Part shown: piece after piece, positions 33,883 to 37,587 of the stretch
How positions within the stretch are numbered: the stretch's first letter is position 1
How the letters are laid out: every line of letters begins with the position of its first letter
From: Pantoea sp. AS-PWVM4
GTDB taxonomy: Bacteria; Pseudomonadota; Gammaproteobacteria; Enterobacterales; Enterobacteriaceae
Length of the DNA stretch: 64,000 nt
Reading direction: 5' to 3'
Assembly: GCF_000468095.1 (NCBI RefSeq)
Contig: NZ_ASZC01000023.1
Coordinates: forward strand, 1-64,000
Program-made: the position numbers and the translations under genes
The notes under the pieces: model-generated
Database searches by the model: none
What the model was told of the DNA's origin: nothing
The model's input: only the letters and a program-made list of their open reading frames with translations

Positions 33883-33889
<7 letters not shown>

Positions 33890-34494
33890 CTGCAGAACAA
33901 CTGACCCGTCTGGATTGGGTCAAAACCGCGGGCATGATGCCCGTTATCGTCCAGCACAGCGTCTCTGGCGAAGTGCTGATGCACGGGTATATGAACGAGG
34001 AAGCGTTGCAGAAAACCCTCGCGGAGGGCAACGTCACCTTCTTCTCGCGCACCAAAAATCGTCTGTGGACCAAAGGCGAAACCTCGGGTCATTTCCTGCA
34101 AGTGGTCAGCATTACACCAGATTGCGACAACGATACGCTGCTGGTGCTGGCAAACCCGATAGGCCCTACCTGTCATCTCGGTACTTCCAGCTGTTTCTCT
34201 CCGGCAGCACCGGACTGGACTTTCCTGTATCAACTGGAGCAACTGCTGGCAGAGCGCAAACATGCTGACCCGGCCAGCTCCTATACCGCGAAGCTGTACG
34301 CCAGCGGTACCAAGCGCATTGCACAGAAGGTAGGTGAAGAAGGCGTAGAAACCGCGCTGGCTGCAACGGTCAATGATCGTCACGAGCTGACCAATGAAGC
34401 GTCCGATTTAATCTACCATCTGTTGGTGTTGTTGCAGGATCAGGAGCTTGATCTGAGCACCATTATCAACAATCTGCGTGCGCGTCATAAGTAA
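33883..34494 (+). CDS. hisI: Bifunctional HisI: PR-AMP cyclohydrolase / PR-ATP pyrophosphatase
   Basis: A 203-residue fusion performing steps two and three of the pathway. The N-terminal cyclohydrolase has [20 protein letters not shown] and the zinc-region DCDNDTLL and [12 protein letters not shown]; the C-terminal pyrophosphatase has [12 protein letters not shown] and [13 protein letters not shown]. Last gene of the his operon; no convincing T-run terminator follows. Confidence 0.95.
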
Positions 34495-34498
34495 GCGA

Positions 34499-34600
34499 TT
34501 GTGCACGATACTGCTCAAAATCGACGAGTCTGGATAATTTTGAGCAGTATACTTCTCATAAATAACAAAGTTGGCTAAAATTGAGCAATATACTGCTCAA
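34499..34600. promoter_or_regulatory. Three 20-bp palindromes at 41-bp intervals upstream of the HipA-like gene
   Basis: Sites at 34499-34518 (TTGTGCACGATACTGCTCAA), 34540-34559 (TTGAGCAGTATACTTCTCAT) and 34581-34600 (TTGAGCAATATACTGCTCAA) start exactly 41 bases apart, about four helical turns, on one DNA face. The third is nearly perfect; the outer halves of the first two also form a perfect 14-base inverted repeat (34508-34521 with 34537-34550). TATACT in the site centres resembles a -10 hexamer. Likely operators for the HTH protein at 35926; binding is inferred. Confidence 0.7.
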
Positions 34601-34612
34601 CCAAGGCGCAGC

Positions 34613-35929
34613 ATGTTAACCCTTCAATTGCATGTCGATGGACGCTGGCAAGATGCCGCACTACTGGACGTGAAAGAGTCACGTAAAGGACGTCAAAGCG
34701 CAGCGTTGCTCGCATACGAGTTCGACTATGCCAGTCAATATCTTGATCGTGATGACCATGCCAGTTGCAGTATCAACTATTCCGTGATGCTTATTGGCAG
34801 CCATTTTTCCCAACCCTGGTTTAGCTTTCTCGACGATATCATGCCTGCTGGTGCCAGCCGACGCTATTGGGTTGCACTGCTTGGCTTACAAACCAAATCG
34901 CCTGCTGAGCAGGATTATGCTTTATTGCAAGCGGGTACTATCGCGCCTGTCGGCAATCTGCGGGTTAAAGAGTCCTTACCACGCCTGCCTGCGGAAAGTC
35001 AGCTGAAGACCAGGCGCTTTCCTGCGGAATGGGCCGTTGAACGTGATACCGATTTTCTGGAATACGCCCAACAAATGGGTGCAGCCAGCGGCGGGGCTAC
35101 GGGAGCCGGTGGCGAGGCACCAAAACTGCTATTGAGACGTAATAATAACTGTGAGGTGTGGATTGATACCTGGCAGGATGATATGCAGAACCAGGATGCA
35201 CATTATCTGGTGAAATATCCACGCGGCGCGCGCAGTGCGATAGATTGCGACATTTTGCGTGCTGAGTACCATTTCTATCATGAATTACATGCTCTCGGCA
35301 TCGATACGATAAGTACCGATAATATGTTGTTATGTGAAGGTGAACGCTATCCATCATTGTGGCTGCCTCGTTTTGATGTAGATTTTGTCGGCGAGAGCAA
35401 AGTGCTATATGGTTTGGAATCCGTCTATTCCATTATGAAAAAGCCACCAGGTAGTTACCTTAACCACTTCGATGTCATCAATGCACTGGTTGAAAAGCTA
35501 AGTCTGACGGATACCGGGCGTAAGCAGCTGGTTATTGAATGGGTGAAACGCGATATGCTTAATATCGCCTTCGGCAATTCTGATAATCATGGCCGTAATA
35601 GTGCCGTACTGAAAAAACCAGAGGGTATGTGGCTGGCGCCAATTTACGACTTTGCCCCAATGAAAGCCGATCCGGAAGGTATCATTCGCACTACGCAATG
35701 GGGGGCTCCCTATGAAGAAGGTGGGCTGTTCCAGTGGCATTTGATAGCAACACGACTGGACGAATTTGTCCCCCAATCTGAACTGCTCAATGCGTTGAAA
35801 AAATTGGCAGAGAGTCTACTCGGCTTAAAATCTCGTCTGGCAGCACGCGGTGTTCCCTCTTCTATTCTGGAAATGCCTGGGATGGGTTTTAACTTTCTCG
35901 ATCAACGTATCGCGGGATGGAAACTATGA
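34613..35929 (+). CDS. HipA-family serine/threonine kinase
   Basis: A 438-residue HipA-like kinase, a toxin or stress-kinase family whose best-known member phosphorylates glutamyl-tRNA synthetase. An N-terminal domain is followed by a glycine-rich GGATGAGGEAPK loop (160-171), a probable ATP lysine in YLVKYPRGA (about 201), the catalytic loop GNSDNHGRN (Asp about 324) and the DFG-like YDFAPM (Asp about 346); all look intact. The ATG at 34613 follows AAGG and the third palindrome by 12 bases; a TTG at 34571 is less likely. The HTH partner gene follows with ATGA overlap, the reverse of the E. coli hipB-hipA order. Target unknown. Confidence 0.82.
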   Translation: MLTLQLHVDGRWQDAALLDVKESRKGRQSAALLAYEFDYASQYLDRDDHASCSINYSVMLIGSHFSQPWFSFLDDIMPAGASRRYWVALLGLQTKSPAEQDYALLQAGTIAPVGNLRVKESLPRLPAESQLKTRRFPAEWAVERDTDFLEYAQQMGAASGGATGAGGEAPKLLLRRNNNCEVWIDTWQDDMQNQDAHYLVKYPRGARSAIDCDILRAEYHFYHELHALGIDTISTDNMLLCEGERYPSLWLPRFDVDFVGESKVLYGLESVYSIMKKPPGSYLNHFDVINALVEKLSLTDTGRKQLVIEWVKRDMLNIAFGNSDNHGRNSAVLKKPEGMWLAPIYDFAPMKADPEGIIRTTQWGAPYEEGGLFQWHLIATRLDEFVPQSELLNALKKLAESLLGLKSRLAARGVPSSILEMPGMGFNFLDQRIAGWKL

Positions 35930-36261
35930 CAAAGAAGCTCTCGCCATTTGAACGTGAAGCGATGCTTCTTGAGCTGTTGCAACAATTTATGAAAGAACAG
36001 TTAACTCAGGGAGAATTGCTGATGCAACTACGCAAAAAAGTTCTGGGCTTCTCGCAGGAGCGCTACGCCACACTGGCAGGTATCAGCAGACGCACACTTT
36101 CTGACATTGAACTCGATAAAGAGAGCATCACACTCACCACGTTGAACCGTGCATTAAAGCCATTAGGGTTGAAGACAGGCGTTTTACCACGCCAGCCACA
36201 TATGATGCAGACACTGTTAACGCAACTCGCGCAATCCGGAGACCACCATGACCACCCATGA
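35926..36261 (+). CDS. XRE-type HTH protein, HipB-like antitoxin candidate
   Basis: A 111-residue protein with a central XRE helix-turn-helix (RKKVLGFSQERYATLAGISR, then RTLSDIELDKESITLTTLN) and an N-terminal helical extension of about 35 residues not found in E. coli HipB. It overlaps the kinase stop by four bases, so the two are coupled and probably interact. It is the likely reader of the palindromes at 34499-34600. Its stop overlaps the start of the next gene by 14 bases. Confidence 0.78.
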   Translation: MTKKLSPFEREAMLLELLQQFMKEQLTQGELLMQLRKKVLGFSQERYATLAGISRRTLSDIELDKESITLTTLNRALKPLGLKTGVLPRQPHMMQTLLTQLAQSGDHHDHP

Positions 36262-36724
36262 AAAACTGCTTACCCTGCTTGATCAACATCAGGCGCGTTA
36301 TCGTCTGATGTCGCATGAAGCAACAGGTAAGTGTGAAGCGGTGGCCGCTATTCGTGGCACCGAAGTTGGTCAGGGGGCAAAAGCGCTGGTGTGTCATGTC
36401 AAGGGCAACGGTATCAAGCAACATGTGCTGGCGGTGCTACCTGCCGATCAGCAGGCAGATTTAAGCAAAGTCGCGGAAGCCGTGGGGGGGCGTCGCGCTT
36501 CACTCGCCAGCCCGGCAGAAGTTGATGTGCTCACCGGTTGTGTGTTTGGCGCTATTCCGCCCTTCAGTTTTCATGCCGACTTAATGCTGGTGGTAGACCC
36601 CTTACTGTTTGAACGCTACGACGAAATTGCCTTTAATGCCGGGGTGTTGGAGAAGTCAGTGGTGTTGAATACCGAGGATTACAAAGCGATACACAATGGT
36701 AACGTGATGAAAATAATCCAGTAA
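36248..36724 (+). CDS. yeaK: YeaK-like mischarged aminoacyl-tRNA deacylase
   Basis: A 158-residue YbaK/ProX-family protein very like E. coli YeaK: HEATGKCEAVAAIRGTEVGQ, GAKALVCHVKGNG, RRASLASPAEVDVLTGCVFG and IPPFSFH are shared. Family members hydrolyse wrongly charged tRNAs in trans. GGAGA precedes the ATG. In E. coli the gene is elsewhere; here it is attached to a HipA-type kinase operon, an interesting pairing because HipA acts on tRNA charging. Confidence 0.82.
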   Translation: MTTHEKLLTLLDQHQARYRLMSHEATGKCEAVAAIRGTEVGQGAKALVCHVKGNGIKQHVLAVLPADQQADLSKVAEAVGGRRASLASPAEVDVLTGCVFGAIPPFSFHADLMLVVDPLLFERYDEIAFNAGVLEKSVVLNTEDYKAIHNGNVMKIIQ

Positions 36725-36789
36725 TTGCTATAACTTTCTCTGGACGGTACTCTGCGTGATTCCACATCACGATAAAAGAAGACCGCTTT

Positions 36790-37587
36790 ATGGCAAGTTC
36801 ACGTTTTACCGCCCGTCTGCGTCAGACGCTGACAATGGCTGTGCTGGCAAGCTGCGCGTTCGGCGCACAGGCAAAAATTGACCAGGTTCGTTTCGCCGTT
36901 GATCCCACCTACCCTCCTTTTGAATCCAAAACGCCGCAGGGTAAATTGGTCGGTTTTGACATCGATCTTGGCAATGCGCTTTGCGAACAGATGAAAACCA
37001 AATGCGTGTGGGTAGAAAGTCAGTTTGACGGCATGATCCCGGCCCTGAAAGCACGCAAATTTGATGCAATTCTTTCTGATATGGGCGTGACTGAAGAACG
37101 TCTGAAACAGATCGATTTCACCGTGCCGCTTTACGACACCAAAACTCAGCTGATCGCACGTAAAGGTTCCGGCCTGTTACCCACTGCTGAATCGCTGAAA
37201 GGCAAAACTGTCGGTGTTGAGCAAGGCACGGTACAGGAACGCTATGCGCGTGCGAAATGGCAACCTTATGGTGTTAACGTTGTCCCTTATGGCGACCAGG
37301 CTCAGGTAGAGAGCGATCTGGTTTCTGGCCGTCTTGATGCGGTGTTTACCGATGCTGCGCAAGCCGCTATCGGCTTCCTGAAGCAGCCACAAGGCAAAGA
37401 TTTTGAACTGGCAGGACCGACGGTCCAAGACCCGATTATCGGTCCGGGAACGGCGATTGGTCTGCGCAAAGGTGATACCGAGCTGAAAACTGCACTGGAT
37501 GATGCCTTTGCTGAAATCAAAAAGAACGGCACCTTCGACAAGATCCAGAAAAAATACTTCGCGACAGATATCTCCATTCAGCAGTAA
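36790..37587 (+). CDS. Periplasmic basic/polar amino-acid binding protein (ArgT/HisJ family)
   Basis: A 265-residue ABC-transporter substrate-binding protein. A signal peptide ends at about residue 28 (CAFGAQA-KID). The family blocks FAVDPTYPPFESKTPQGKLV, GFDIDLGNALCEQM and ILSDMGVTEERLKQIDFTVP are present, and the cysteine pair LCEQMKTKC corresponds to the HisJ/ArgT disulfide. No permease or ATPase genes adjoin, so it is an orphan receptor that must share a transporter encoded elsewhere. Confidence 0.85.
   Translation: MASSRFTARLRQTLTMAVLASCAFGAQAKIDQVRFAVDPTYPPFESKTPQGKLVGFDIDLGNALCEQMKTKCVWVESQFDGMIPALKARKFDAILSDMGVTEERLKQIDFTVPLYDTKTQLIARKGSGLLPTAESLKGKTVGVEQGTVQERYARAKWQPYGVNVVPYGDQAQVESDLVSGRLDAVFTDAAQAAIGFLKQPQGKDFELAGPTVQDPIIGPGTAIGLRKGDTELKTALDDAFAEIKKNGTFDKIQKKYFATDISIQQ

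Follow-up and report, generated by a model that had tools for sequence, protein, structure and literature searches.

In Escherichia coli K-12 hipBA the gene for the HTH protein precedes that of the kinase, HipB binds several palindromes and HipA acts as co-repressor (PMC3920265, in the text available from it). Three conserved, evenly spaced operators lie upstream of the Hip kinase operon in the HipBST system of Legionella, there with 53-bp gaps, hipB first and a separate HipS (PMC10653801, available text). Multiple, even evenly spaced, operators are therefore not new for Hip systems. A reversed gene order has also been published, for HipE (hipEB, clade IX) and for subclades of hipAB, deeply branching pairs in which the kinase gene comes first and the HTH gene second; the operator and palindrome passages available from that source concern hipBA, none of them hipEB (PMC8262856). 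In Shewanella putrefaciens CN-32 HipAB, likewise reversed and with an HTH protein whose HTH domain is C-terminal, the kinase is inhibitory to growth of E. coli, an effect that the HTH protein neutralises. The CN-32 pair is autorepressing: activity of its promoter was 2.1-fold lower with HipB overexpression and 2.9-fold lower with both proteins, and the available text mentions no operator, palindrome or inverted repeat (PMC8978831).

The locus described here occupies part of the window, as we call the whole 64,000-nucleotide stretch of Pantoea DNA that was analysed. Its gene order is the reverse of that in K-12 hipBA and the same as in hipEB and the reversed hipAB pairs, the kinase gene leading, the HTH gene following and the pair falling in a deep clade of its own. 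In our view it belongs to a known family, and what is newly noticed is its regulatory layout. The features are as follows.

33883..34494, + strand: upstream neighbour, presumably hisI (a name taken from the earlier note and from his-operon order), with its stop codon at 34492-34494
34499..34518, no strand: operator-like site 1 (O1), three mismatches to the consensus
34508..34550, + strand: hairpin with a 14-bp stem and a loop of 15, its arms (34508-34521 and 34537-34550) 100% complementary
34540..34559, no strand: operator-like site 2 (O2), two mismatches, right half overlapping the predicted -35
34553..34581, + strand: predicted sigma-70 promoter TTCTCA-17-TAAAAT, the one found in a promoter scan where 0.5 was expected in shuffles of the region
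34581..34600, no strand: operator-like site 3 (O3), no mismatches, abutting the predicted -10
34613..35929, + strand: HipA-fold Ser/Thr kinase, predicted toxin, 438 amino acids, with a Pfam HipA_C match, a HipA-like model and conserved catalytic residues
35926..36261, + strand: HipB-like Xre/HTH protein, predicted antitoxin and repressor, 111 amino acids, with HTH_3, couple_hipB and HipB(Lp) matches
36248..36724, + strand: YbaK-like aminoacyl-tRNA editing gene, overlapping the HTH gene by 14 bp, a neighbour and not a module gene

The original prediction of a kinase gene followed by an XRE-type HTH gene, joined by an ATGA overlap, is borne out (34613-35929, then 35926-36261). So are the limits that it set for the sites, the first of which begins at the fifth base beyond the hisI stop and the last of which is separated by 12 bases from the kinase ATG at 34613. 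The kinase is recognised by the Pfam HipA_C profile above its cut-off (3e-18), and the top Foldseek matches of its moderately confident model (pLDDT 68.8) are HipA structures (E 3.7e-11, TM about 0.6). Its match to the profile of the HipA N-terminal domain (Couple_hipA) falls below the cut-off at E 0.035, whereas HipE retains the N-terminal subdomain according to the available text of PMC8262856. Among the ten named loci with kinase matches, seven are from Pantoea (71-76% identity).

The catalytic residues of the kinase appear to be intact, as had been proposed, since the Gly-rich loop and the catalytic and Mg-binding motifs are present on alignment with HipA. D324, N329 and K201 are invariant in the 44 family kinases, of which 43 also have D346; L104, which has a stop in the kinase, was omitted from these residue counts, and some counts omit L031, L032, L016, L094 and L102. 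D324 and D346 fall opposite the equivalent motifs when aligned with a solved HipA. The sole deviant is L013, with D346A: in this P. eucrina locus (L013, also listed as L024) the Mg-binding Asp is replaced by Ala and one loop glycine by Ser. Taken with a -10 hexamer that starts with C, these changes indicate that the P. eucrina copy is probably decaying.

The HTH protein matches HTH_3 (2.3e-8) and HipB(Lp) (3.2e-5), along with couple_hipB at 6.4e-11, a value below the cut-off. Its AlphaFold model (mean pLDDT 79.5) finds its best structural matches, weakly (E 0.05), among HipB proteins, so that both models, with HipA and HipB proteins as their nearest structures, recall K-12 hipBA. The model places a predicted helix at residues 7-22, ahead of the HTH domain, in agreement with the extra N-terminal helical region suggested earlier. 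Across the family, HTH proteins have 25-131 residues before the HTH domain, counted from the furthest upstream start.

At its end the HTH gene runs into the YbaK-like gene: over 36248-36261 the final residues of the HTH protein are encoded by the first YbaK-like codons, read in a different frame, and the two genes may for this reason be translationally coupled. HipA kinases target aminoacyl-tRNA synthetases, which made the YbaK-like gene attractive as a third member of the module. That idea was rejected, as hisI and ybaK are also adjacent in Pantoea without the module and no ybaK was found in the available flanks of 64 non-Pantoea loci. A close copy of the gene (at least 78% identity) is present in 54 of 61 Pantoea genomes, some with the module and some lacking it. 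A phage origin of the module was also rejected, there being no match among 50,697 phage records, and Rfam gave no match across 34000-36800. Elsewhere, the source genome (G000) encodes two further HipA-domain kinases, L145 (G000:C21) and L146 (G000:C18), one of them solo and HipH/YjjJ-like and the other with an HTH gene upstream.

Within Enterobacterales, 40 of 394 genomes gave a match, two of these being fragments. A relative of the kinase is also encoded in 123 PLSDB plasmid records, Acinetobacter and Agrobacterium accounting for 67. The HTH gene is directly 3' of the kinase gene in every one of 48 rows, which represent 46 distinct loci because L031 duplicates L103 and L032 duplicates L102, and in all 12 plasmid loci examined. 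Among 46 other gammaproteobacterial HipA_C loci (16 hand-picked plus the 30 best HipA_C scorers, a sample that for that reason favours canonical hipBA), the HTH gene lies upstream in 39, was not found in six and is equivocal in one (L149). A tree that omits ten Pantoea rows (L016 included), L148, L149, L151 and L104 gathers the 35 family rows into a single clade (100/100), which adjoins four solo HipH/YjjJ-like kinases (92/79, with a long-branch warning).

CN-32 HipAB appears to belong to this family, judged by primer matches. Its gene primers match family locus L206 at 19, 17, 16 and 18 of 20 positions and at the right places; its upstream primers match at 14/21 and 12/20, no better than background. 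The HTH protein has 152 residues in both, and the kinase has 448 in CN-32 against 445 in L206, the CN-32 figures being those of the available text. Compared with the window, L206 shows 52% identity in the kinase (446 columns) and 44% in the HTH protein (84 columns). The genus of L206 also has a record shared with Shewanella abyssi (L211 and L033). Toxin-antitoxin function is thus established for an apparent relative and not for the window pair.

Upstream of the kinase gene, the three 20-bp palindromes predicted at 34499, 34540 and 34581 are indeed present, with start-to-start distances of 41 and 41 bp. At up to three mismatches the consensus occurs at these three places only, both in the window and in the whole 5.0-Mb genome, and not once in 100 shuffles, on which grounds chance repeats were rejected. 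Internal pairing of O1 extends to 7 of 10 positions. The proposal that the sites share one helical face is nearly but not exactly right: 41 bp corresponds to about 3.9 turns at 10.5 bp per turn. The sites read TTGAGCARTATACTGCTCAA and variants of it and, as anticipated, are unrelated to the operators of K-12 HipB, four TATCC-N8-GGATA sites at 28, 39 and 28 bp.

The original prediction hinged on whether homologous pairs elsewhere carry similarly phased repeats; a periodicity of 41-42 bp mostly recurs and in some of them is absent. All 17 intact Pantoea loci have an array of three sites at 41/41. Autocorrelation, calculated free of any motif, peaks at 41 bp in the 17 Pantoea upstream regions (z 16.5), while in 29 non-Pantoea Enterobacterales loci it gives z 10.6 at 41 bp and z 3.7 at 42 bp, the best shift being 41 in 13 loci and 42 in eight (21/29 together). 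For comparison, the 41-bp signal is absent from 44 other HipA-family loci (z -0.8). Of 22 loci in the genus Shewanella, one of which (L090) is shared with the earlier set of 29, 14 have their best shift at 41 or 42. The plasmid loci have a best shift of 41-42 in 3 of 12, two of them at p 0.05 or better. Of the remotest plasmid homologues (about 30% identity), L195 has its peak at 43 bp (p 0.010), L194 has no such peak and the others are without a 41-42 signal. Some family loci (L083, L090, L205 and L206) have only two good sites, and in the nearest Shewanella loci two good sites lie 41 bp apart as against three in the window. The array is thus not universal across the family.

The operator sequence drifts where the spacing is constant, with TGAGCA in some loci, TGAGTA in others and a different repeat in L101. 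The core TGAGYA-N6-TRCTCA, picked post hoc with the sequences already inspected, reaches p 0.01 or better (floor 0.005) in 22 of 29 non-Pantoea loci and misses in seven. A presumed recognition helix with SRR accompanies C at operator position 5 in 107 of 136 half-sites, and one with SRK accompanies T in 29 of 32, a figure that becomes 36/42 on adding L095, L097 and L098, in which K was assigned by eye; L033, with helix TRK, carries C and is an exception. Helix residue and operator base seem, then, to change in step, in what is essentially one event on the tree. This joint change, single event as it is, speaks for the HTH protein and against a different cellular regulator binding the palindromes, as does the confinement of the sites to this one place in the source genome. 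Such a regulator would find some support in genomes that keep both sites without the module, and we consider it highly improbable.

The predicted -35 lies within the right half of O2 and the predicted -10 next to O3. O2 is asymmetric at the -35 (column 56) in 37 of 38 sequences, and all 16 Pantoea loci examined share the 17-bp spacer and the same promoter layout. Hexamers of the form TA...T occur before O3 in 15 of these 16 loci, before O2 in three and before O1 in none; the exception at O3 is L013 (P. eucrina), whose hexamer starts with C. Outside Pantoea a clear -10 is seen in only 6 of 22 loci. In the broken loci L056, L069 and L072 (genomes G014, G025 and G002) the distance from O2 to O3 is down to 36-37 bp, with the consequence that the 17-bp promoter spacing is shortened too.

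We favour, with a probability of about 80%, a reversed-order HipA/HipB-type toxin-antitoxin module with a promoter inside its operator array, repression through O1-O3 and, in Pantoea, an O1/O2 hairpin after hisI. The kinase would be the toxin and the overlapping HTH protein both antitoxin and repressor. The two genes would be transcribed from the predicted promoter within the array, HTH dimers would occupy O1-O3, the promoter being covered when O2 and O3 are filled, and the kinase would strengthen repression as co-repressor. A spacing of about four turns would align the three complexes along almost the same face, permitting mutual contact. In Pantoea, the halves of O1 and O2 that face each other would also be retained as a hairpin just after hisI.

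Within Pantoea, a full-length kinase was found in 17 of 61 genomes, and in all 17 intact loci the module lies between hisI and ybaK. Genome G031, of the same species, has neither module gene and only 69 bp from the hisI stop to ybaK. In four genomes (G002, G009, G017 and G032) the HTH frame persists although the kinase is broken or missing, and every intact Pantoea kinase (17 of 17) has an HTH gene; survival of the HTH gene alone, with no kinase-only loci, is consistent with a toxin dependent on its antitoxin, albeit in small numbers. The same history of a chromosomal pair at a fixed locus, often lost, could suit a regulatory kinase that does not inhibit growth, the HTH protein being merely its repressor. 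We think this unlikely, both from that imbalance and because the apparent Shewanella relative inhibits growth in E. coli, an effect cancelled by its HTH protein, as the available text of PMC8978831 reports. In the 74%-complete assembly of G051 there are two hisI copies on different contigs, with the module beside one only, perhaps through a mixture of strains.

To return to the toxin-antitoxin reading and its hairpin, the arms are the right-hand half of O1 and the left-hand half of O2, each extended by three bases. The region 34495-34612 folds better than its shuffles (z -3.42). In 38 distinct Pantoea sequences whose sites are exactly 41 bp apart, pairing in the stem reaches 94.2% and there are 23 double-changed cells, neither value being equalled in 500 shuffles, though related sequences may beat shuffles without structure; two of the five measures, the counts of covarying pairs and pair types, are unexceptional (50/500 and 45/500 shuffles as high). 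Sliding the stem partners gives at most 44.2% pairing, and the dyads within sites are 74.2% paired with little covariation (shuffles as high: 45/500 for paired cells, 60/500 for double-changed cells and 38/500 for the score). A G-C pair replaces A-T at columns 20/42 in intact loci L016, L017 and L019, the letters of O3 being unchanged. The 22 sequences without an intact module retain 93.2% pairing and 13 double-changed cells.

The hairpin core is kept in 31 of 41 Pantoea spacers in which the module is broken or absent; the other ten have different predicted hairpins, some with a T run (G003, G047 and G052). The spacer tables leave out 4 of the 61 genomes (G035, G041, G043 and G045) and list the second G051 contig as G051b. 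Pairwise differences, with the module intact and otherwise, are 0.10 vs 0.24 for the O2 outer half, 0.18 vs 0.28 for the O1 outer half, 0.14 vs 0.15 for the 3' arm and 0.104 vs 0.184 for the 5' arm. Without the module, therefore, the 3' arm is stable, the outer halves drift and the 5' arm also loosens. A terminator scan limited to loops of 3-8 found nothing here, where the loop is 15, and no T run was found after the stem. In 21 genomes of other Erwiniaceae the best operator-like site 3' of hisI has 13/20 matches, and several of them carry U-tailed hairpins after hisI instead.

Covariation and retention after loss of the module argue for an RNA-level role at the end of the his operon, and the hairpin is possibly a his-operon 3'-end or terminator-like element in Pantoea. 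Carried to its limit, the same evidence would make the repeats a his-operon RNA or terminator element alone and not operators. Against this, which we hold to be very unlikely, this spacing is found again ahead of homologous pairs without an adjacent hisI (absent from the available flanks of all 64 non-Pantoea loci), O3 lies outside the hairpin and the outer half of O2 varies less when the module is intact. The toxin-antitoxin reading also accommodates an RNA element. We suggest tentatively, as a distinct possibility somewhat short of an even chance, that O1-O2 in Pantoea serves both as DNA operators of the module and as an RNA hairpin ending his, having displaced the host terminator and outlasting the module, and that expression of the module may be tied to his.

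The window locus was not found in the titles and abstract openings of literature on Pantoea HipA toxin-antitoxin systems. Operators of reversed pairs were not found described in the available text of PMC8262856 and PMC8978831, and to that extent both the 41-bp arrangement and the shared hairpin count as new details. With them, the little-studied reversed-order Hip modules gain a testable regulatory layout, one in which the spacing is kept as the operator sequence drifts. The Pantoea arrangement further suggests that the control region of a toxin-antitoxin module can become part of an adjoining housekeeping operon.
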